From the IMG/VR virus record IMGVR_UViG_3300030107_003631, positions 1-22,258 of that record: DNA of 22,258 nucleotides; one strand, written 5' to 3'. The translations under genes and the position numbers were made by a program. Each line of letters opens with the position of its first letter. The stretch's first letter is position 1. This DNA comes from a virus. This document shows, one piece after another, positions 7,553-16,758 of this stretch. The notes below the pieces were generated by a model. The model ran no database searches, was not told where the DNA came from, and saw only the letters and a list, made by a program, of their open reading frames with translations.

Positions 7553-7729
7553 ATGACGGCAATAGTAAATGGAATCCAATACATCGGAGGTGGAACGGCT
7601 CCAAATGAATTTATAAATAATCAAGCAGGTACAATTGATGGCACACAAACTGTCGAGAACGGTGTTCTTGCAGGACCTATCACTATACCTGGTACAGTAA
7701 CAGTAACAGGGACTTTAGTAATAGTATAA
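7553..7729 (+). CDS. Small fiber-associated protein, 58 aa
   Basis: Ribosome-binding site AGGAG, ATG at 7553, and the TAA stop overlaps the next ATG (TAATG at 7727-7731). The protein is MTAIVNGIQYIGGGTAPNEF, then INNQAGTIDGTQTVENGVLA and a strand-rich end GPITIPGTVTVTGTLVIV. The short G-T-V-T-V-x-G-T-L-V-I-V ending is like the ends or stalk segments of phage fiber proteins. It is short, but has a good start context, no long gap on either side and neighbour-like codon use. It is likely to be co-translated with the first Gly-rich fiber. It could be a fiber-tip or assembly helper; that is not proven. Confidence 0.7.
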   Translation: MTAIVNGIQYIGGGTAPNEFINNQAGTIDGTQTVENGVLAGPITIPGTVTVTGTLVIV

Positions 7730-9153
7730 TGTCAAAGATAGAAGTAGATGCAATAACACAACAATCAGGATCAACACTTACAGTTGGTGGTGGAGCTAGT
7801 AAAACTGTTGTTGCTGATGCAACTACTGTAACTTTAGGTAGATGTGGTGGAACTGTGGCATTAGCTAGTGGTGCTACTCAAACAGGATTTGGTAGAACAG
7901 GAACTGTAGATTGGCAAACAGGATCAATTAAAACGACTACATTTACCGCAGCCAATGGTGAAGGCTATTTTGCAGATACATCTTCAGGTGGTTTTACAAT
8001 GAACTTACCAGCAGGATCTGCTGGAGCAATCGTATCGGTTGTTGATTATACAAATACTTTTCAAACAGGTAATTTAACAATATCCCCTAATGGTTCAGAA
8101 AAAATTGGTGGAGTAGCTGCTTCTTTTGTAGCGAGTACAGAAGGTCAATCTTTAACTTTTGTTTATGTTGATGGAACAGAAGGATGGAAAAACGTTCAAG
8201 ATTCAACAAGTAATGCAACAGGTAATGCTTTTTTAGTAGCATCAGGTGGAACAGAAACAACGTCTGGTAATTGTAAAATTCATACATTTACAGGACCTGG
8301 TACTTTTACAGTATCTGCTATTTCAACAAATTGTGCAGCTGAAAATGTAGTTTCATATATGGTAGTAGCTGGTGGTGGGGGTGGAAGTGGTGGACCGTCA
8401 GGTGATGCTGGTGGCGGTGGTGGAGCCGGTGGTTTTAGAGAATTAAAAACTCCTTTAACTCCATATACAGCAAGTCCATTAGATGGTTATCCATCTTCAC
8501 CTAACAGAGTAACAGTTACAGCAACAGCTTTTCCAATAACAGTAGGTGCTGGAGGAACAGGAACAAATGTTTATCAAACAGCTGGTGGTACGGGTGGCAC
8601 TTCTACATTTTCAACGGTGACATCAGCAGGTGGTGGTGGCGGTGGTGGTAATACTACAGCCGCACTTACCGGAGGTTCTGGTGGTGGAGGCGGAGGCGGT
8701 GGATCTCCTCCTGGTACAAACACTTTTCCAGGAGCCGCAGGAAACACTCCTCCTACAAGTCCACCACAAGGAAACACAGGTGGAGCTGGCGGTGCACAAG
8801 GTCCAGGAACAGATCAAAGAGGTGGTGGTGGCGGTGGAGCTACAGCAGTAGGTCAAAATTCTCAACCAACAGTTCAAGGTGGTGACGGTGGTGCTGGAGC
8901 AACAACATCAATTACAGGAAGTCCAACAGCTTATGCTGGTGGTGGAGGTGGTTATTCATCTCCAGTTACAGCACTTTCATATGGGACTGGTGGAACAGGA
9001 GGCGGTGGAAATGGATCATCACAGTGCCTTTCTGCAACCAACGGAACTGATAACCTCGGAGGAGGAGGTGGTGGAGCAGGTGGTCCTGTTAGTCCCTCTT
9101 CAGGTGGAAATGGTGGTTCAGGTGTAGTAATAATAAGGTATAAATATCAATAA
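7729..9153 (+). CDS. Glycine-rich tail fiber/adhesin, first of three paralogs, 474 aa
   Basis: Layout: residues 1-58 are a strand-rich stalk start (SKIEVDAITQQSGSTLTVGG). Residues 60-158 are a shared domain (GEGYFADTSSGGFTMNLPAG ... EKIGG ... LTFVYVDGTEGWKNV). Residues 165-212 are a collar (ASGGTETTSGNCKIHTFTGP, GTFTVS, VSYMVVAGG). From residue 214 to the end the protein is a glycine-rich domain with many runs of 4 to 8 Gly. It has the motif GNTPPTSPPQGNTGG at 338-352 and ends GGSGVVIIRYKYQ. Gly-rich domains of this kind are known in phage adhesins (T2 gp38-like), where stacked polyglycine-II helices display variable loops for receptor binding. It starts at the TAATG overlap with the small gene before it. 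Paralogs follow directly. Confidence 0.85.
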   Translation: MSKIEVDAITQQSGSTLTVGGGASKTVVADATTVTLGRCGGTVALASGATQTGFGRTGTVDWQTGSIKTTTFTAANGEGYFADTSSGGFTMNLPAGSAGAIVSVVDYTNTFQTGNLTISPNGSEKIGGVAASFVASTEGQSLTFVYVDGTEGWKNVQDSTSNATGNAFLVASGGTETTSGNCKIHTFTGPGTFTVSAISTNCAAENVVSYMVVAGGGGGSGGPSGDAGGGGGAGGFRELKTPLTPYTASPLDGYPSSPNRVTVTATAFPITVGAGGTGTNVYQTAGGTGGTSTFSTVTSAGGGGGGGNTTAALTGGSGGGGGGGGSPPGTNTFPGAAGNTPPTSPPQGNTGGAGGAQGPGTDQRGGGGGGATAVGQNSQPTVQGGDGGAGATTSITGSPTAYAGGGGGYSSPVTALSYGTGGTGGGGNGSSQCLSATNGTDNLGGGGGGAGGPVSPSSGGNGGSGVVIIRYKYQ

Positions 9154-9155
9154 TT

Positions 9156-10646
9156 ATGACAAGTAAAATTAAAGTAGATAATATAAATAAAGTTTCAGAT
9201 GATTCAAACATCATCAATAAATGTGGTACAACAGTAACTGTTGGAGCTGCTTCTGATGGAGTTAGAACAGGTTCAAATAATTTACAAGCATCAGATGGTG
9301 GAAATTTAATTAGTCAATGTGGAGCTACAATTACTATTGGTGCTAGTGGTGATACTATTTCTTTAGCATCAGGTGCATCACAATCAGGATTTGGTAGAGC
9401 AGGGACTGTTGATTGGCAGACATCGATTAAAACAGCAGCTAGTTTTACTGCAGTAAATGGCGAAGGTTATTTTGTAGACACTTCAAGCAATGCTATTACA
9501 GCAAATTTACCTGCAGGTTCTGTTGGTGCAATTGTATCTTTCAAAGATTATGCACAAAATTTTGATACAAACGCTTTAACTATTGCTGCAAATGGTTCAG
9601 AAAAAATAGACGGTTTAACTACCGATTTAGTTTTAAGTGCAGAAGGTCAAGCAGTTACTCTTGTTTATGGAGATGCAACAAAAGGTTGGCAAGCAGTGAA
9701 TAGTAATGATGTTGTTAACGAAATTAAATATATAGCTGCTTCAGGAGGTAGTGAAACTACTGTTTGCACAAATTTCAAAGTTCATACATTTACAGGACCA
9801 GGCACTTTTACAGTTTCTTGTGCAGGTAATGCAGCTGGTTCTAATACTGTTTCTTATGTAGTAGTAGCTGGTGCTGGCGGAGGTGGTGGAGAGCAAAGTG
9901 GCGGTGGTGGAGCTGGCGGTTATAGAGAAGGAAAATGTACTTCTGATCCATATACTGCATCACCTTTAAACGCACCAGCAGGTTTACCAGTTACAGCTCA
10001 AGGTTATCCTATTACTGTTGGAGGTGGTGGAAATGGTGGCTCAAACCCTGACACAAATGCAACAGCAGGTTCTAATTCAGTTTTTTCAAGTATAACATCA
10101 ACAGGAGGAGGTAGAGGTGGTACTTCTACTGATCCGCACCCTGCTGGAGCCGCTACAACAGGTGGTTCAGGTGGTGGAGGTGCTACACTTGGAGGATCAA
10201 CAGGAGCAGCAGGAAATACTCCCCCTGTTAGTCCACCTCAAGGAAATACTGGTGGAAATGGAGCAGGTGCACCTTACGTAGGTGGCGGTGGTGGAGGAGC
10301 TGGCGCAGTAGGAACTAATGGAGCTGGGAATCCTGGAGGTGCAGCACAGGCAGGACCAGGAGGTAATGGTGTAGCATCTTCAATAACATCATCACCGGTT
10401 ACAAGAGCTGGTGGAGGTGGAGCTGGAGGCACAGGAGCAACTGTCGGTGGTAATCAACCTTACAACGCATCTACAGGCGGTTCAGGTGGTGGCGGAGCAG
10501 GAGCACCAGACAGTCCAAGTACAAATGGAACAGCAGGAACAGCTAATACTGGCGGTGGTGGAGGTGGAGGTAATTTACAAAACCCTTCTAGCACTGGAGG
10601 TAACGGTGGCTCTGGTATAGTAATAATAAGGTATAAATTTCAATAG
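9156..10646 (+). CDS. Glycine-rich tail fiber/adhesin, second of three paralogs, 496 aa
   Basis: It starts 2 nt after the previous stop, without a clear ribosome-binding site, so translation is probably coupled. The N-terminus holds a doubled CGxTxTxG unit (NKCGTTVTVG, about 22-30; SQCGATITIG, 53-62), absent from the other two copies. Residues 83-182 are the shared domain (GEGYFVDTSSNAITANLPAG, EKIDG, VTLVYGDATKGWQAV). The collar is at 190-239 (NFKVHTFTGPGTFTVSCAGN). The glycine-rich domain runs from about 240 to the end with GNTPPVSPPQGNTGG at 353-367 and the terminus GGSGIVIIRYKFQ. The surface loops between Gly runs differ from the first copy, as expected for receptor-binding variants. Confidence 0.85.
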   Translation: MTSKIKVDNINKVSDDSNIINKCGTTVTVGAASDGVRTGSNNLQASDGGNLISQCGATITIGASGDTISLASGASQSGFGRAGTVDWQTSIKTAASFTAVNGEGYFVDTSSNAITANLPAGSVGAIVSFKDYAQNFDTNALTIAANGSEKIDGLTTDLVLSAEGQAVTLVYGDATKGWQAVNSNDVVNEIKYIAASGGSETTVCTNFKVHTFTGPGTFTVSCAGNAAGSNTVSYVVVAGAGGGGGEQSGGGGAGGYREGKCTSDPYTASPLNAPAGLPVTAQGYPITVGGGGNGGSNPDTNATAGSNSVFSSITSTGGGRGGTSTDPHPAGAATTGGSGGGGATLGGSTGAAGNTPPVSPPQGNTGGNGAGAPYVGGGGGGAGAVGTNGAGNPGGAAQAGPGGNGVASSITSSPVTRAGGGGAGGTGATVGGNQPYNASTGGSGGGGAGAPDSPSTNGTAGTANTGGGGGGGNLQNPSSTGGNGGSGIVIIRYKFQ

Positions 10647-10653
10647 GTAAATT

Positions 10654-12063
10654 ATGAGTGAAGTAAAAGTAAATAAAATTAGTCCACGATCTGGAACAGA
10701 AGTAACACTAGGTGATAGTGGCGATACGTTCACAATTCCTAGTGGTGCAACAATTAATAACCAAGGAACGGCGACAAACTTTGGTGCAACAGGTTCAGCG
10801 TCTTGGACAACAACAGTTAAGACATCAGGTTTTACAGCGGTTGCTGGTGAAGGATATTTTTGTGATACAACAAGTGGAGGATTTTCAGTTAATCTACCAG
10901 CAGGAACACCTGGAGCAGTGGTTGCATTTAAAGATTATTTAGGAACTTTTGATACAGGCACTTTAACATTAGTTCAAAACGGTTCAGATAAAATTGGTGG
11001 TTCAACGATTAATGCAACTCTAACTACAGAAGGCATTGCAGTTACATTAGTTTTTATAGATTCAACACAAGGTTGGTTAGTAACAGATTCAGGTTTACAA
11101 GACGAAGCACCAACAGCACAATATATTGCTGCAACTGGAGGAACCATTATTACTTGTAGTGATCACAAAATTCACGTTTTCACAGGACCAGGAACTTTTT
11201 GTGTTTCTAATGCAGGAAATGCTGCAGGGTCTAATAAAGTTTCATATATGGTAGTAGCAGGTGGTGGTGCGGGTGGTGGAACTAATAGACAATCTAGACC
11301 TGGTAGTGGAGCAGGAGCAGGGGGTTTTAGAGAAGGTAAAGCACCTGCATTTGAAAGTTATACAGCTTCTCCATTAGTAGATTCAGATGGTTTAACAGTG
11401 CCAGCAACGGCTTATCCAATAACAGTAGGTGCTGGTGGAACAGGTGGAGCAGGAGTTAATGGACCATCTTCAAGTGGAGCTAATTCTATTTTTTCAAGTA
11501 TTACGTCAGCCGGAGGCGGAGCAGGAGCATCACCTGGTGCCGATGAACACGCTGCAGGCGGATCAGGAGGAGCAGCAAGAGCAGGAGGACCAGTAGGTAA
11601 ATGTGGAAACACACCTCCAGTTAGTCCACCTCAAGGTAATGCAGGTGGAAATGGAGGACCTTGTGCTGTAAACTTTTCTACAGGTGGTGGTGGTGGAGCT
11701 ACAGCTGCTGGAGGTAATTCACCAAATCCTTGTGTTGCAGGTGCAGGTGGAGCTGGAGCTGGAACAGCTATTACAACATCAACTTGTTATGGAACACCAG
11801 GTCCAAGTGGTTCTTTAAGATACTATGCTGGTGGAGCAGGTGGAAATGTTTGGGGACCATCTGGTGGAGCTGGTGCAGGAGGTGATGGTGGTGGAGCTGC
11901 GGGTAAAAATGGAAATCCTTATGCTGATGGAACAGCTGGAACAGTAAATACTGGTGGTGGAGGTTCAGGAGCTTCTGGAGGACCAGGATATCCAGCGACT
12001 GCTGTAACAGGTGGTAATGGTGGTAGTGGAATTGTTATTATTAGATACAAATTTCAAAATTAA
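10654..12063 (+). CDS. Glycine-rich tail fiber/adhesin, third of three paralogs, 469 aa
   Basis: It starts 7 nt after the previous stop, with a weak AGGT site. It has a short N-terminal stalk (SEVKVNKISPRSGTEVTLGD). The shared domain is at 47-143 (GEGYFCDTTSGGFSVNLPAG, DKIGG, VTLVFIDSTQGWLV) and the collar at 155-200 (DHKIHVFTGPGTFCVSNAGN, VSYMVVAGG). The glycine-rich domain runs from about 202, with GNTPPVSPPQGNAGG at 318-332, and ends GGSGIVIIRYKFQN. More Cys residues occur here than in copy 1 (for example VGKCGNTP and ITTSTCYGTP). All three copies have the same order of parts, so the cluster arose by tandem duplication with divergence of the loops. Role: adsorption to the host surface, inferred. 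Confidence 0.85.
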   Translation: MSEVKVNKISPRSGTEVTLGDSGDTFTIPSGATINNQGTATNFGATGSASWTTTVKTSGFTAVAGEGYFCDTTSGGFSVNLPAGTPGAVVAFKDYLGTFDTGTLTLVQNGSDKIGGSTINATLTTEGIAVTLVFIDSTQGWLVTDSGLQDEAPTAQYIAATGGTIITCSDHKIHVFTGPGTFCVSNAGNAAGSNKVSYMVVAGGGAGGGTNRQSRPGSGAGAGGFREGKAPAFESYTASPLVDSDGLTVPATAYPITVGAGGTGGAGVNGPSSSGANSIFSSITSAGGGAGASPGADEHAAGGSGGAARAGGPVGKCGNTPPVSPPQGNAGGNGGPCAVNFSTGGGGGATAAGGNSPNPCVAGAGGAGAGTAITTSTCYGTPGPSGSLRYYAGGAGGNVWGPSGGAGAGGDGGGAAGKNGNPYADGTAGTVNTGGGGSGASGGPGYPATAVTGGNGGSGIVIIRYKFQN

Positions 12064-12108: not shown

Positions 12109-12564
12109 ATGGCACATTTTGCAAAACTAGGAGCTAATGGAAAAGTTATTCAAGTGTTAACTATGGATAACGATAAAATGTTAAACGCTGATGGTGTTGA
12201 AGACGAAACAGTAGGTCAACAGTGGTTAGAAACACACAACAACTGGCCTGCACAAATGTGGATTCAAACATCTTACAACACAACACAAAACACACATAAA
12301 TCTGGTGATAACTCAAAAGCATTTAGAGGAAACTATGCAGGTATAGGTTATACTTGGGACGAAGATAATAATATCTTTTGGCCTAAATCACCTTATGCAT
12401 CTTGGGTAAAAGATACTACAACTGCATCTTGGAAATCACCAATCGGTGATGCTCCAGCATTAACTGCAGAACAAGAATCACAAAATACAGCTAATACTCA
12501 TCAATGGGGTTATGTTTGGAATGAAGCTAATCAATCTTGGGACTTGACAGATAACAACGCATAA
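12109..12564 (+). CDS. Conserved marine phage protein of the MAHFAKL family, 151 aa
   Basis: Strong ribosome-binding site AAGGAG (12096-12101). The sequence MAHFAKLGANGKVIQVLTMD is followed by VGQQWLETHNNWPAQMWIQT, RGNYAGIGYTWDEDNNIFWP, KSPYASWVKDTTTASWKSPI and WNEANQSWDL. I recognise the order MAHFAxLxxNxxVxxVxxxx ... W(I/V)QTSYN ... RxNYAGIGYxxDxxxxxFxxPxPxxSWxLdxxtxxWxxP as a widespread family in marine phages. It often lies near tail fiber genes; its function is not known to me. It is rich in Trp (11 residues), which together with the repeated W-x-W context hints at a surface-exposed binding fold. Placed between the fibers and the oxygenase cluster. Confidence 0.85.
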   Translation: MAHFAKLGANGKVIQVLTMDNDKMLNADGVEDETVGQQWLETHNNWPAQMWIQTSYNTTQNTHKSGDNSKAFRGNYAGIGYTWDEDNNIFWPKSPYASWVKDTTTASWKSPIGDAPALTAEQESQNTANTHQWGYVWNEANQSWDLTDNNA

Positions 12565-12582: not shown

Positions 12583-13086
12583 ATGCAAAAGAAAGTATTA
12601 AGCGAACAGGCTTTATATTATGGTGATGTGGCAATGCCTAAAGATTGGGACATTGACCGAGATAAATTATCAGGCGATATTTTACAATCAGTAATTCAAA
12701 ACAAAGATTTTCCGTTCTCGCGAACATTTGATATGTTGAATACTTATATGAGAGATCATATAAATTTAGACTATGGATTTACTTTAGTTAATAAAGAAAC
12801 TTGGGGTAACATCTATAAACCTAGCGAGACTACAATTCCATTATTAAATATAGATCCAGTAGATTTACGAAACTCACCAGATTATACATTTTTATATGGT
12901 GTAAAAGTCAAAGACTGTATGGTCAGAATACACTATGAAGATAATAGACGTAAAGGTAGAAGTTGGGATATACCACTTAAAAATAATATGTTTATTATGT
13001 TTCCATCTACAAATATGTATTACTTAACTAACAATCAAAAGGATAGTTTAAATTTTGTACAAACTATATTGTATGAATATATCTAA
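12583..13086 (+). CDS. Conserved hypothetical protein before the oxygenase cluster, 167 aa
   Basis: The start region has only GGTGGTGG as a possible ribosome-binding site. The protein contains FPFSRTFDMLNTYMRDHINL, FTLVNKETWGNIYKPSETTI, NIDPVDLRNSPDYTFLYGVK and RIHYEDNRRKGRSWDIPLKN, then NNMFIMFPSTNMYYLTNNQK. The strand pattern and the N-N-M-F-I-M-F-P-S step resemble the late strands of double-stranded beta-helix proteins such as 2OG oxygenases (compare GSIIVFPS in the gene at 13575). However, no HxD/E motif and no distal His are visible. It may be an inactive relative or a partner of the following enzymes. I recognise it as a conserved marine phage family of unknown function. Its end overlaps the next gene by 14 nt. 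Confidence 0.7.
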   Translation: MQKKVLSEQALYYGDVAMPKDWDIDRDKLSGDILQSVIQNKDFPFSRTFDMLNTYMRDHINLDYGFTLVNKETWGNIYKPSETTIPLLNIDPVDLRNSPDYTFLYGVKVKDCMVRIHYEDNRRKGRSWDIPLKNNMFIMFPSTNMYYLTNNQKDSLNFVQTILYEYI

Positions 13087-13588
13087 TTATATTTTTATAA
13101 GCGATAATTTTTTAAACAATATAGAATGCGATAAATTAATAGATTATTATTACAAAAATAAAGATAAAATAATTACTAAATCAAATTATATTTATTGTGA
13201 TATGCAACCAAACAAATTTTTAGAAAAAAAATTAAATAAAATTCCTTCTTTGTATGAAAAAAAATATCCTGAAGCTAGTATAACATTTGACAAATGGTAT
13301 TTGGATGAGATTAGAATAAAACATTTTAAACCAAAAAATAGTTTTGACAATTGGCATTCGGAACATTCAACAAAAGCTCCTTTAAGAATGTTAGCTCTTC
13401 AAATATATTTATCTTCACATAAATGTGGAACTAAATTTTATCGTTATAAAACAATAAAATCAGAAAAGGGAAGATTAGCTATTTGGCCTGCATATTTTAC
13501 TCACACACATAAAGGACAAGTTTGTCCAGATAATTTGAATAGATTTATTTTTTCTGGATATTATAGGTTTAAGAATGAATCTATTTAA
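13073..13588 (+). CDS. 2OG-Fe(II) oxygenase-like protein 1, 171 aa
   Basis: I use the ATG at 13073 (MNISNYIFISDNFLNNIECD) rather than the in-frame TTG at 13055, giving a 14-nt overlap with the previous gene. The N-terminal FISDNFLNNIECDKLIDYY is typical of prolyl-4-hydroxylase-like proteins. Candidate Fe ligands are His95 and Glu97 (NWHSEHS; HxE, not the more common HxD) and His146 (or His144) in YFTHTHKG; Arg157 in LNRFIFSGYY would bind 2-oxoglutarate. The last strands, GRLAIWPAYFTHTHKGQ and NRFIFSGYYRF, match the family. The gene is extremely AT-rich, with long A and T runs, even compared with its neighbours. Predicted reaction: 2OG- and O2-dependent hydroxylation; the substrate is unknown. 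Confidence 0.72.
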   Translation: MNISNYIFISDNFLNNIECDKLIDYYYKNKDKIITKSNYIYCDMQPNKFLEKKLNKIPSLYEKKYPEASITFDKWYLDEIRIKHFKPKNSFDNWHSEHSTKAPLRMLALQIYLSSHKCGTKFYRYKTIKSEKGRLAIWPAYFTHTHKGQVCPDNLNRFIFSGYYRFKNESI

Positions 13589-14231
13589 TTACTATTGGTA
13601 TTTTACGAGTGTTCTAACACCAAAGTTCTGTGACGATGTAATAGCTTATGCTAATCAACAAAAAGAAACAATGGCTATTACTGGTGGTTATGGAAGAGAA
13701 AGAGATTTAAATAAAAAACCATTAAACAAAGAAGAAGTAAAAGATTTAAAAAGAAAAAGAAACTCTGATTTAGTATGGCTTAATGACACTTGGATATATA
13801 AAGAAATACACCCATATGTTCATGAAGCAAATAAACAAGCTGGTTGGAATTTTGATTGGGAAAGATCAGAATCTTGTCAGTTTACAAAGTATAAATTAAA
13901 TCAATATTACGATTGGCATTGTGATAGCTGGGATAAACCATATGATAGAAAAGATCCTAACAATTCAGAACATGGCAGAATTAGAAAACTATCTATGACT
14001 TGTCAGTTAACAGATGGATCAGAATACAAAGGCGGTGAATTAGAATTTGATTTTAGAAACTATGATCCACATATGCGAGATGAATCAAAACATAGAATAC
14101 AATGTAAAGAGATATTACCAAAAGGATCTATTATTGTATTTCCTAGTTTTGTGTGGCATAGAGTTAAACCAGTAACATCAGGCACAAGATATAGTCTTGT
14201 AGTATGGCATTTAGGGAGGCCTTTTAGATAA
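13575..14231 (+). CDS. 2OG-Fe(II) oxygenase 2 (prolyl hydroxylase-like), 218 aa
   Basis: This is the clearest oxygenase of the four. The start (MNLFNYYWYFTSVLTPKFCD) overlaps the previous gene by 14 nt. Fe ligands: His115 and Asp117 in YYDWHCDSW (HxD) and His195 in FVWHRVKPV. Arg205 in GTRYSLVVW is the expected 2-oxoglutarate ligand. The GGELEFDFRNYD strand, KGSIIVFPSFVWH and the segment KLSMTCQLTDGSEYKGGELE are typical of phage prolyl-4-hydroxylase-like or PKHD-type oxygenases. Length (about 220) is normal. It should act in the cytoplasm during late infection. The substrate is not indicated by the sequence; the fiber genes next door make virion proteins one candidate. Confidence 0.9.
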   Translation: MNLFNYYWYFTSVLTPKFCDDVIAYANQQKETMAITGGYGRERDLNKKPLNKEEVKDLKRKRNSDLVWLNDTWIYKEIHPYVHEANKQAGWNFDWERSESCQFTKYKLNQYYDWHCDSWDKPYDRKDPNNSEHGRIRKLSMTCQLTDGSEYKGGELEFDFRNYDPHMRDESKHRIQCKEILPKGSIIVFPSFVWHRVKPVTSGTRYSLVVWHLGRPFR

Positions 14232-14863
14232 TGTTTATAAATAGTTATTTTCCAACCATAGTATGGAGTGAGGAAAAACCAGAGTTTGTTAAATCGTTAA
14301 ATAAAGCAAGTAATAAATATATTACTGATGCTCGTAAAAGAGAAAAAGAATTTATAAAAAAAAACGGTGACTTTGGCAGATCGTATCATTCAACACCACT
14401 TACAACTGACAATGACTTTTTAGATTTTAGAAATTACATTGGTCAAAAGTCTTGGGAATATTTAGACCATCAAGGTTATGATATGCAACAATACACAACT
14501 ATGTTTTCTGAATTATGGGTACAAGAGTTTGCTAAAAAAGGTGGGGGTCATCATTCAGCACACATACATTGGAACCAACACGTATCAGGTTTTTACTTTT
14601 TAAAGTGTAGTGATAAAACTTCTTTTCCAATATTTCACGAACCGAAGACTGGTGCAAGATGTACAAAATTAAAAATGAAACCAAAATTAAAAGGTGTGTG
14701 GGCAGGTCACGAACAATTTCATTTAAAACCAAAACCAGGTACATTAATTATATTTCCAGGTTATTTAGAACACGAGTATGCAGTAGACTTCGGTATTGAA
14801 CCATTTAGATTTATACATTGGAATATACAAGCAGTGCCAAAAGAAATGGCAAAAGATGTTTAA
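14231..14863 (+). CDS. 2OG-Fe(II) oxygenase-like protein 3 (2OG-FeII_Oxy_5 type), 210 aa
   Basis: It starts at a TAATG overlap with the preceding stop. MFINSYFPTIVWSEEKPEFV matches the start of the putative oxygenase family known as 2OG-FeII_Oxy_5 / TIGR02466. ELWVQEFAKKGGGHHSAHIH is followed by WNQHVSGFYFLKC, with His111 and His113 as candidate metal ligands (HxH instead of HxD in this family). The distal site is His181 in GYLEHEYAVD, with Arg193 in EPFRFIHWNIQ. PKPGTLIIFPGYLEH is the usual strand before the last His. The enzyme is a member of the family by pattern; activity is not proven. The 3' end overlaps the next gene by 8 nt. Confidence 0.78.
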   Translation: MFINSYFPTIVWSEEKPEFVKSLNKASNKYITDARKREKEFIKKNGDFGRSYHSTPLTTDNDFLDFRNYIGQKSWEYLDHQGYDMQQYTTMFSELWVQEFAKKGGGHHSAHIHWNQHVSGFYFLKCSDKTSFPIFHEPKTGARCTKLKMKPKLKGVWAGHEQFHLKPKPGTLIIFPGYLEHEYAVDFGIEPFRFIHWNIQAVPKEMAKDV

Positions 14864-15476
14864 AAAGAAAAAGTATACAGTTATTCGTCAAGCAATATCA
14901 AAAGACCTAGCAGCTTTTATTGCAAATTATTTTTTAATGCAAAAACAAGTTTATGATACTTGTAAAGCTTCAAGATACTTTTCACCTTTTGAAAACATTA
15001 TAGGGTCTTATGAAGAGCCAGATGGTCAAATACCAAATACATATTCTCAATATGCTAATATAGCTATGGAAACTTTGTTACTTAAATGCCAACCTAAAAT
15101 GGAAGAAGTAACAGGATTAAAATTATATCCTGCTTATACTTATGCAAGAATATATAAAAAAGGTGATGAACTTAAAAGACACAAAGATAGATTTAGTTGT
15201 GAAATATCTACAACTATGAATCTTGCTGGTGATGACTGGCCTATATATCTAGAGCCATCTGGTAAAGAAGGTATGAAAGGTATCAAGGTAGATTTAAAAC
15301 CAGGAGATATGTTGGTTTATTCTGGCTGTGAGCTAGAGCATTGGAGAGAAAAATTCAAAGGCAAAGAATGTGTGCAAGTTTTTCTGCATTATAATAATCG
15401 TAAAACACCAGGAGCAAGAAATAATATGTTCGATACTCGTCCACATTTAGGTCTTCCTTCTTGGTTTAAACGATGA
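14856..15476 (+). CDS. 2OG-Fe(II) oxygenase-like protein 4, 206 aa
   Basis: I choose the ATG at 14856 (MFKKKKYTVIRQAISKDLAA), 8 nt inside the previous gene, because an earlier in-frame ATG at 14796 would need a 68-nt overlap. Fe ligands: His109 and Asp111 in ELKRHKDRFSCEISTTMNLA (HxD) and His162 in GCELEHWREKF. VQVFLHYN is the last strand. LYPAYTYARIYKKGDELKRH and PGDMLVYSGCELEHW are typical of an oxygenase type often seen in marine phage genomes. The 2OG-binding Arg is not obvious after His162; Lys170 or another basic residue may replace it. The gene ends 14 nt before the terminator at 15491-15528, so it is the last gene of this transcript. Confidence 0.82.
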   Translation: MFKKKKYTVIRQAISKDLAAFIANYFLMQKQVYDTCKASRYFSPFENIIGSYEEPDGQIPNTYSQYANIAMETLLLKCQPKMEEVTGLKLYPAYTYARIYKKGDELKRHKDRFSCEISTTMNLAGDDWPIYLEPSGKEGMKGIKVDLKPGDMLVYSGCELEHWREKFKGKECVQVFLHYNNRKTPGARNNMFDTRPHLGLPSWFKR

Positions 15477-15490
15477 TATAATTCTTAGAT

Positions 15491-15528
15491 GGAGACAGGG
15501 CACCACCACATACCCCCTGTCTCCTTTT
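15491..15528 (+). terminator. Intrinsic terminator after the oxygenase cluster
   Basis: GGAGACAGGG (15491-15500) pairs perfectly with CCCTGTCTCC (15515-15524) over 10 bp around a 14-nt loop (CACCACCACATACC), followed by four T (15525-15528). It separates the oxygenase genes from the fiber gene at 15540, whose ribosome-binding site AAGGAT follows at once. Confidence 0.85.
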
Positions 15529-15539
15529 AAGGATTTTTT

Positions 15540-15989
15540 ATGAGTTTAGGATTTGACGCAATATCAGCATTACCATTTGCTACATCGGGACCCGATACAG
15601 ATGTAAACGTATCGGTAACAGGTAATTCACTTACAATTACTATTGGTAGTGTAGGTATTATTGCTGATGCAGTAACAGAAAATTTAACACCCAATCAAGT
15701 TACATTAGGTACAGGAACTTTAACTATTACAGCTGATGCTAATCACACAGTTACAGGAAATGCAGTATCTTTAGGTATAGGTGCATTTACAGTTAATATA
15801 GATACTAACGTAACACCTTCTGGAAACTCGTTGACCTTGGCTACAGGAAATGTTACAATAACTGCTGACGCAAATGTAACACCTGATGCTACTAGTTTAT
15901 CTTTAGATACAGTGGAACCAGGAGTTATTACGTGGAATGATATAATACCAGGAGCAACAATGGTTTGGACACCAATAAAACCGTACTAA
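15540..15989 (+). CDS. Tail fiber protein with 22-residue repeats, 149 aa
   Basis: After a 22-residue head (MSLGFDAISALPFATSGPDT) there are about four and a half repeats of 22 residues from residue 25. Each has the pattern (N)VTxxGNSLTLxxGxxTITADA: VSVTGNSLTITIGSVGIIAD, TPNQVTLGTGTLTITADA, TVTGNAVSLGIGAFTVNID, TPSGNSLTLATGNVTITADA and TPDATSLSLDTV. The protein ends WNDIIPGATMVWTPIKPY. This is a typical marine phage fiber architecture, a stack of short beta repeats probably forming a trimeric or solenoid stalk. The repeat number is a natural place for length variation. It is followed after 1 nt by the next fiber gene. Ribosome-binding site AAGGAT. Confidence 0.8.
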   Translation: MSLGFDAISALPFATSGPDTDVNVSVTGNSLTITIGSVGIIADAVTENLTPNQVTLGTGTLTITADANHTVTGNAVSLGIGAFTVNIDTNVTPSGNSLTLATGNVTITADANVTPDATSLSLDTVEPGVITWNDIIPGATMVWTPIKPY

Positions 15990-15990
15990 T

Positions 15991-16758
15991 ATGGCATCAA
16001 CTTATTCAACAGATTTATCAATAGAACTTGTAGCAACCGGTGAAAAAGCTGGTCTATGGGGAGCTATTACAAATACTAATTTACAATTATTACAAACAGC
16101 AGCATCAGGTTATGTAGAAGTAACTTTAAGCACTGGCACAACTACGTTAAGTTTGGCTGACGGATCGTCAAGCGCAAACGGTAAAAATCTTTATATTAAA
16201 TTAACAGGAACTTTATCTGGTAATGCTAGTTTAGCTATGCCTGCAACAACATCAGGTGGTAATGCAAACAGAGTATTTTTTGTAGAAGATGGTACAACTA
16301 GAGGCGGAGCTGCAGATAGTTATACTGTAACTTTATTAACTACAGGTCAAAGTGCATCTACACAAGTTCCTCTTCCAGAAGGTGCAACAGCTTTAGTTTA
16401 TTCTAGAGGTAGTGTACCAGCAACAACATTAGGAATGTTACAAAAAGGAATGACATCTGTAACTGCAGCAAGTAAAGTTGCATATACAGCAGTTGCAGGA
16501 GATCAAATTGTAGTAGATACAGTTGCTAACCCTGTAACAATTACACTACCTGCATCACCTGCAGTTGGTGATGAAGTCACAATTATGGATGGTTCAGCAT
16601 CAAATGGTTTTGCAACAAACAATTGTATTATTGATAGAAATAGTGAAAACATAGAAGGCGCTGCTGCTAATGATACTCTTGCTACTAATAATCAATGTGT
16701 AACGTTAATATACGCTAACGCTGCAAAAGGTTGGCTATATAAATCTACTAATCAATAG
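15991..16758 (+). CDS. Tail fiber/structural protein, 255 aa
   Basis: The N-terminal part (ASTYSTDLSIELVATGEKAG, LWGAITNTNLQLLQTAASGY) is a common marine phage fiber start. A beta region to about residue 155 contains RVFFVEDGTTRGGAADSYTV and LPEGATALVYSRG. Residues 165-252 (GDQIVVDTVANPVTITLPAS, GDEVTIMDG, NSENIEG, CVTLIYANAAKGWLYKS) align with residues 60-158 of the first Gly-rich fiber and with the same domain in the other two. The shared pattern is GxxxxxDT, LPA, GxxVxxxD, NxExIxG and (L/F)xYxxxxKGW. So the window encodes four copies of one fiber domain. The gene begins 1 nt after the preceding stop and is probably part of the same transcript as the repeat fiber. Confidence 0.78.
   Translation: MASTYSTDLSIELVATGEKAGLWGAITNTNLQLLQTAASGYVEVTLSTGTTTLSLADGSSSANGKNLYIKLTGTLSGNASLAMPATTSGGNANRVFFVEDGTTRGGAADSYTVTLLTTGQSASTQVPLPEGATALVYSRGSVPATTLGMLQKGMTSVTAASKVAYTAVAGDQIVVDTVANPVTITLPASPAVGDEVTIMDGSASNGFATNNCIIDRNSENIEGAAANDTLATNNQCVTLIYANAAKGWLYKSTNQ

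Follow-up and report, generated by a model that had tools for sequence, protein, structure and literature searches.

A block of five overlapping genes in the IMG/VR virus record IMGVR_UViG_3300030107_003631 (positions 1 to 22,258; this whole 22 kb stretch of DNA is called the window here) is made up of variants of a single fold, that of the 2-oxoglutarate (2OG)-Fe(II) oxygenases, and stands just behind genes for glycine-rich tail fibers. The fold assignment comes from direct modeling of two of the proteins, W0 and W4, and from sequence profiles for the other three, W1, W2, and W3. W4 belongs to a family generally annotated as ferrochelatase, and W0 is, according to its model, an oxygenase-like protein that has lost its metal ligands. 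The folds and conserved ligands of these proteins, the coupling and co-occurrence of their genes, the variability of the slots between them, and the linkage to glycine-rich fibers are described here as observed. The function proposed from them, with confidence a little short of even, is that of an operon modifying the glycine-rich adhesins of the fiber tip after translation, a reading in which the activity, the substrate, and the benefit to the phage are all conjectural. With 82-84% DNA identity in the matched parts to 023Pt_psg01 and to Pelagibacter phage HTVC023P, the window phage is, judged by its sequence, a relative of the HTVC023P-type pelagiphages. The five genes are as follows.

12583..13086, + strand: W0, predicted pseudo-oxygenase, a double-stranded beta-helix without metal ligands (AlphaFold2 (AF2) model, Foldseek, VIA, lost ligand columns)
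13073..13588, + strand: W1, predicted accessory 2OG-Fe(II) oxygenase, phrog_2297, which carries the label "DNA endonuclease" (PF13640 in 42/42 family members; invariant HxE...H; slot gene)
13575..14231, + strand: W2, predicted 2OG-Fe(II) oxygenase like prolyl 4-hydroxylases (P4H) and PKHD-type enzymes, phrog_61 (PF13640, 1e-15)
14231..14863, + strand: W3, predicted PF13759-type oxygenase with HxH...H...R, phrog_81 (PF13759, 6e-12; PDB 3bvc and 2rg4)
14856..15476, + strand: W4, the "ferrochelatase" phrog_2954, re-assigned to a predicted prolyl-hydroxylase-like oxygenase fold (AF2, Foldseek, VIA, conserved ligands)

Folds and metal sites of the five proteins

The W4 family is annotated as ferrochelatase in PHROGs (phrog_2954) and in many individual records. 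Sequence alone is silent on its fold, as a Pfam search returns no family match for W4 singly or among 38 members, a PDB sequence search with five W4 sequences returns none, and profile-profile links to other oxygenases do not exceed 11% probability, so that the assignment is settled only by the structure model. In Foldseek, the AF2 model (pLDDT 93.8, pTM 0.89) is matched best by the prolyl 4-hydroxylase of P. putida, whose structure was determined together with EF-Tu (4iw3, 9e-9); PHD-type hydroxylases and further 2OG enzymes come next, and AlkB is also among the matches. The VIA Z scores for SnoN (16.8) and P4H (16.2) amount to a tie. H109, D111, and H162, the expected metal ligands, are invariant in 38/38 family members. 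An Arg is missing from its usual place after the distal His, where Q174 stands at H+12, and R98, R112, and R164 are invariant. Ferrochelatase itself was considered and rejected, as no ferrochelatase profile is found among the 38 members at E values up to 1 and ferrochelatase structures are absent among the listed Foldseek and VIA matches, those listed being 2OG oxygenases; their absence is no formal exclusion of the ferrochelatase fold. On the modeled structure, W4 has a prolyl-hydroxylase-like oxygenase fold and is almost certainly not a ferrochelatase, with an activity that is predicted accordingly from the fold. The member of this family in S-CREM1 is already labeled a 2OG oxygenase; the correction is thus known locally but missing in PHROGs, in Wittmers et al. 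2022 (PMC9599517), and in a 2024 seasonal study (PMC11561400). In phrog_3531-type proteins, W4 is fused to a second oxygenase domain that resembles W2.

W0 illustrates a different kind of divergence. Searches of Pfam and PHROGs give no family match for it, and its AF2 model (pLDDT 89.3) resembles 3bvc (9e-7) and PHD2 in Foldseek; P4H and the viral collagen enzyme of that type also appear across the Foldseek and VIA comparisons, with a VIA Z of 14.9. In profile comparison, the link of W0 with the 008M_404 oxygenase family stands at 94.6%, whereas the best link between an oxygenase and a control family reaches 3.3%. The metal triad is lost, the window protein having L87, N89, and Y146 where ligands are expected; most family members have L or F, N or D, and Y at these positions, and 8 or 9 distant relatives retain HxH...H. 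The model and the alignment together identify W0 as a conserved pseudo-oxygenase in which the fold is predicted to be kept and the metal ligands are gone. Two of the active-type relatives (L228:4259-4810 and L069:305-856), the former directly after a fiber gene with a 1-nucleotide (nt) overlap, may stand near the form ancestral to the pseudo-oxygenase.

The remaining members are assigned by profile. Pfam cut-offs are passed by W2 (PF13640, 1e-15) and W3 (PF13759, 6e-12); W1 alone falls below the cut-off, yet PF13640 is matched by 42/42 of its relatives. In the family alignments, H95-x-E97...H146 of W1 is kept in 42/42 members, H115-x-D117...H195...R205 of W2 in 119-120/120, and H111-x-H113...H181...R193 of W3 in 120/120; an HxD/E...H triad is invariant or nearly so in the W1, W2, and W4 families. 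The site of W3 is HxH...H rather than HxD/E, as it is in 3bvc and 2rg4, the solved relatives matched by its profile. The residue after the distal His is a conserved Arg in W2 (R205) and W3 (R193) and, at position 157 of W1, a Lys in 33 members and an Arg in 9. In the PDB, the W2 profile finds PKHD-type hydroxylases as well as viral collagen P4H. By these profiles, W1, W2, and W3 share the 2OG-Fe(II) oxygenase fold or family and are predicted to turn over 2OG. Homologs of W1 are labeled "DNA endonuclease (V)" in some records; all 42 match PF13640 and none has an endonuclease V or pyrimidine-dimer family listed, so the proteins bearing this label are, on profile evidence, oxygenases.

An initial annotation of this DNA had recognized four of the genes, at 13073-15476 with overlaps of 14, 1, and 8 nt, and had quoted an iron-binding signature for each. 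The coordinates and overlaps are correct, and the signatures are real and conserved in alignments of 38-120 sequences, the one qualification being the HxH of W3; all four proteins do fall within the oxygenase fold or family, W1-W3 by profile and W4 by AF2 model and Foldseek. The restriction of the unit to these four stands only in part, as W0, which overlaps W1 by 14 nt, had been overlooked as a fifth member of the fold.

Gene order, variable slots, and fiber neighbors

The genes of the block are closely coupled, with overlaps of 14 nt between W0 and W1, 14 nt between W1 and W2, 1 nt between W2 and W3, and 8 nt between W3 and W4. Across about 230 IMG/VR loci surveyed for gene order, the usual succession is a gene of the size of phrog_7759, W0, W2, W3, and W4, and insertions fall in slots between these core genes. 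Most are further oxygenases, including one family of 60 open reading frames (ORFs) and several small families; VirX1-like halogenases (5), methyltransferase-like genes (3), and one HNH-like gene make up others. W1 is itself such an insertion, and its place differs among loci: it occupies the W0/W2 slot in the window, the W2/W3 slot in L031, and the W3/W4 slot in both L046 and L102. HTVC023P is without it. The stable core is W0-W2-W3-W4, and W1 is an accessory slot gene. Where W4 has at least 2 kb on each side, further oxygenase-family genes occur within 2 kb at 17/17 and 27/27 loci, 3.4-3.7 of them on average. Thus, the gene-neighborhood survey that had been suggested for this locus finds that the oxygenase genes do not occur independently, and the view of four different oxygenases as one dedicated unit holds for their coupling and co-occurrence but not for a fixed membership, W1 being accessory and absent from HTVC023P.

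Related loci extend this variation. An ORF resembling an HNH endonuclease is inserted between W2 and W3 at L125:7548-7991 and is a possible agent of slot mobility. The HTVC008M record (KC465899.1) has 18 PF13759 and 13 PF13640 matches in 147 kb, counts that none of twelve further phage records in the search reaches. HTVC023P and relatives (L003:20139-20813, L041, L128) have another glycine-rich gene, gp70-like, with a second oxygenase, gp71-like, behind it; in some of them a small ParB-like gene separates the two.

The block is flanked in the window by the following features.

7729..9153, + strand: glycine-rich tail-fiber/adhesin paralog A, candidate substrate (PF21722 Gly_rich_2, 5e-19; NTPPTSPPQGN present)
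9156..10646, + strand: glycine-rich tail-fiber/adhesin paralog B, candidate substrate (PF21722, 9e-13; NTPPVSPPQGN present)
10654..12063, + strand: glycine-rich tail-fiber/adhesin paralog C, candidate substrate (PF21722, 3e-19; NTPPVSPPQGN present)
12109..12564, + strand: small conserved gene between fiber and array, phrog_7759, with no assigned function (2e-31)
15490..15524, + strand: terminator hairpin followed by a T-rich tract (10 bp stem; -20.6 kcal/mol; z = -4.5)
15540..15989, + strand: gene flanking the array downstream, probably virion-type (ORF of equal size after W4 in many related loci)
15991..16758, + strand: putative tail-fiber-like protein gene flanking the array downstream (conserved position; counterpart in 023Pt_psg01 annotated "putative phage tail fiber like protein")

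All three fibers exceed the Gly_rich_2 cut-off, and the N-terminal part of paralog C resembles tailspike and T4 gp10 structures. An ORF similar in size to the phrog_7759 gene stands before W0 in most related loci. The shared terminator that had been placed at 15491-15528 is indeed represented there by the strong hairpin, and a promoter scan found promoter-like sites to be rarer than in shuffled sequence.

The location within a tail-fiber locus, also part of the initial annotation, recurs across many unrelated phages. Arrays near Gly_rich_2-type genes are found in HTVC008M, Mosig, HTVC033P, Sf-FR1, S-RIM44, ACG-2014b, Syn10, and S-CREM1 as well. Nine phage genomes contain both phrog_2954 and a Gly_rich_2 gene; the two are at most 11 kb apart in 9/9, nearer than random positions (Fisher combined p 0.0005; p 0.001 with one genome per lineage), in a test that does not control for a permissive insertion site in the late operon. 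Of the divergent arrays in IMG/VR that have 1.5 kb or more of upstream sequence, 44/56 loci have a glycine-rich ORF within 4 kb. The association is also seen from the fiber side. The motif GNTPPVSPPQG is frequent in these otherwise variable fiber tips, and among IMG/VR contigs chosen solely by DNA encoding it and having at least 2.5 kb of room downstream (n = 44), an oxygenase-family gene follows in 40, at a median distance of 932 nt over all contigs that have one; this reverse test is partly confounded because many of the contigs are HTVC023P-like. The smallest version of the module among the loci found (L328:337-2513, on a phage-like contig in a betaproteobacterial metagenome-assembled genome) consists of a glycine-rich fiber gene and a fused W4-W2 protein, followed by lysis-type genes.

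A comparable arrangement occurs in Polaromonas, Rhodoferax, and related bacteria, where W4 and a second oxygenase gene lie in a cluster headed by a large repetitive protein. In L339:1-6979 and the related L336-L338 and L341, this protein is accompanied by an Lcl_C-domain protein, an APH-type kinase, and the W4-type and second oxygenases (PF13640 in L339), with SecA-like, M50-like, and HlyD genes on the opposite strand. The cluster has the appearance of a surface-protein system of bacteria that is equipped with oxygenases of its own, and the large repetitive protein may be guessed to be their substrate.

Candidate substrates of the block

How the block might act can be outlined as follows. Late in infection, the phage would produce its glycine-rich tail-fiber adhesins, and the Fe(II) oxygenases encoded just behind them would hydroxylate adhesin residues ahead of virion assembly or in its course. 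The likeliest places are the loops that separate the glycine runs, which are rich in Pro, Asn, and Ser/Thr. Because of their resemblance to peptidyl-prolyl hydroxylases, W2 and W4 would be the Pro hydroxylases, with tip peptides such as GAGNTPPVSPPQGNAGG as candidate targets. W3 and the slot enzymes would supply other modifications, joined in some relatives by a VirX1-like halogenase or a methyltransferase, and W0, with the fold but no metal site, could act as a subunit that binds substrate or provides a scaffold. By exchanging slot genes, a phage lineage could then alter the chemistry of its receptor-binding tip at constant sequence, or stabilize the tip. A broader proposal, possible but more doubtful than the operon reading itself, is that an exchangeable tailoring operon of oxygenases, pseudo-oxygenase, halogenase, and methyltransferase is present in many marine phages and diversifies the chemistry of the receptor-binding tip rather than its sequence. 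The initial annotation had envisaged a modification system acting on one complex substrate, for instance fibers, cell-surface glycan, or a nucleotide precursor; fiber emerges as the best candidate, but some relatives adjoin glycosyltransferases, nrdAB, or clamp-loader genes instead.

Several observations weigh against fibers as the substrate. When W4 lineages with at least two oxygenase genes are clustered at 60%, 13/33 are without a nearby glycine-rich gene, some of them through short flanks, and 20/33 have one. The whole records of S-PM2, S-P4, and S-SCSM2R contain no Gly_rich_2 gene, though phrog_2954 is present, and the W4-W2 fusion of ACG-2014f adjoins nrdAB. Before clustering, W2 in particular seemed to go with the Pro motif (36/59 versus 1/15), a pairing that is not significant after clustering (p 0.26); for W0 the corresponding association is suggestive (p 0.037 at 60% clustering and 0.005 at 50%). 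In the passages considered of the S-CREM1 report, the virion proteome served solely to identify proteins (PMC9964418). The fiber linkage itself may come in part from shared ancestry or from a permissive insertion site in the late operon.

Such a site is central to an alternative that is unlikely but survives best, in which these are auxiliary metabolic genes acting on host small molecules or on 2-oxoglutarate levels, as in nitrogen signaling, and are merely stored in a permissive region by the fibers. This is the published view for cyanophages (PMC3037559) and pelagiphages (PMC9599517), and hot-spot insertion is plausible because the slots gain and lose genes, including the HNH-like gene in L125. 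It leaves unexplained, however, the recurrence of glycine-rich fiber neighbors in unrelated phages, the retention of a dead paralog at the head of the core, and the likeness to protein hydroxylases. Another possibility is that the enzymes modify proteins other than the glycine-rich tips, whether of the host (EF-Tu or ribosomal proteins, for example) or of the virion. The top Foldseek match of W4 was solved with EF-Tu, and the Syn10 array has a JmjC_2 member, from a family that includes ribosomal oxygenases; but the roughly ten different enzymes of the Syn10 array exceed the need of one translation factor and the neighboring genes are for fibers, not translation, so that this possibility is rather improbable.

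Tailoring of a glycan, a lipid or host-surface polymer, or a virion glycan is, by a small step, less probable again. In S-SCSM2R (L233:5010-10519), a W4-W2 fusion lies by several glycosyltransferases, an aminotransferase-like gene, and a radical-SAM maturase, a neighborhood suggesting that the enzymes of this lineage may act on a glycan or a peptide product, and HTVC023P has a glycosyltransferase farther downstream. Against this, none is recognized inside the surveyed HTVC023P-type slots, and most arrays adjoin fibers instead. Action on nucleotides or DNA, as in base hypermodification, is very unlikely. The relative beside nrdAB in ACG-2014f, others that follow the gene for a DNA methyltransferase in S-P4 and Syn30, and AlkB among the W4 Foldseek matches could be read this way, but the window array sits among virion genes and the hypermodification genes of Wittmers 2022 (TS, aG/PT-PPlase1; PMC9599517) are a separate group, near DNA polymerase in some clades. 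Finally, that W4 is a ferrochelatase and the block an iron/heme partner module, as held by the database annotation and two papers (PMC9599517, PMC11561400) and as might be suggested by the SAR11 phage Mosig (L232:7984-9220), where genes annotated as heme oxygenase and phycocyanobilin:ferredoxin oxidoreductase (PcyA-like) directly follow the oxygenase array, has almost no probability left in view of the high-confidence 2OG oxygenase fold of W4, its invariant HxD...H, and the 38 members without a ferrochelatase profile.

If the fiber-tailoring proposal is correct, phages of SAR11 and of Synechococcus/Prochlorococcus would modify their own adhesins, and the phage halogenase VirX1 would gain a candidate natural setting. 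The widely used "ferrochelatase" annotation would need changing, and papers on heme/iron partner metabolism (PMC9599517) or on the seasonal auxiliary metabolic genes phrog2954 and phrog61 (PMC11561400) would describe members of one oxygenase block.

Relation to known systems

A limited literature search found no paper on prolyl hydroxylation of phage fibers or on glycine-rich fibers together with oxygenases. The clustering of 2OG genes in these phages is already published; the re-annotation, the pseudoenzyme, the slot structure, and the fiber link appear to be new. Phold indicates that EGLN3-like phage proteins are widespread. Closest to the window is the system of Wittmers et al. 2022 (PMC9599517), in the same phage group and with the same gene families, where eight non-orthologous 2OG genes are co-located with "ferrochelatases" in HTVC023P-type pelagiphages. 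In that account the "ferrochelatase" is taken as a heme enzyme with oxygenases near but not adjacent to it, whereas in the window it is itself a predicted oxygenase and the genes overlap; beyond that account, a pseudo-oxygenase heads the core, the slots vary, and the neighbors are glycine-rich fibers.

For cyanophages, the portions available of Sullivan 2010 (PMC3037559) propose a role in 2OG/nitrogen signaling for the 2OG genes of T4-like phages, and those of the S-CREM1 report (PMC9964418) describe ten 2OG oxygenases and propose a reprogramming of host metabolism. In S-CREM1, as in the window, oxygenase genes follow one another, with a W4-family member among them; halogenase and fiber genes are close by in S-CREM1. 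Unlike the present analysis, both accounts, in these portions, take the host-metabolism reading and draw no link to fibers. The flavin-dependent halogenase VirX1 of cyanophage Syn10 (PDB 6qgm) differs from the window enzymes in being a halogenase rather than an oxygenase, and has homologs (1.7e-97) in HTVC023P-type array slots; its own locus lies between glycine-rich fiber genes and a run of oxygenase/JmjC genes.

The prolyl 4-hydroxylases (4iw3, PHD2, and the Chlorella virus collagen P4H 5c5t) have a fold in common with the models of W4 (Z about 16) and W0 and a profile in common with W2, although identity in the structural alignments is 9-18% and W4 lacks the Arg that usually comes after the distal His. 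The polyglycine-II sandwich adhesin gp38 of phage S16 (6F45; PMC6851490) has a glycine-rich receptor-binding tip with variable loops, as do the window fibers; this likeness is drawn from sequence features, 6F45 not being among the sequence matches of the window fiber.

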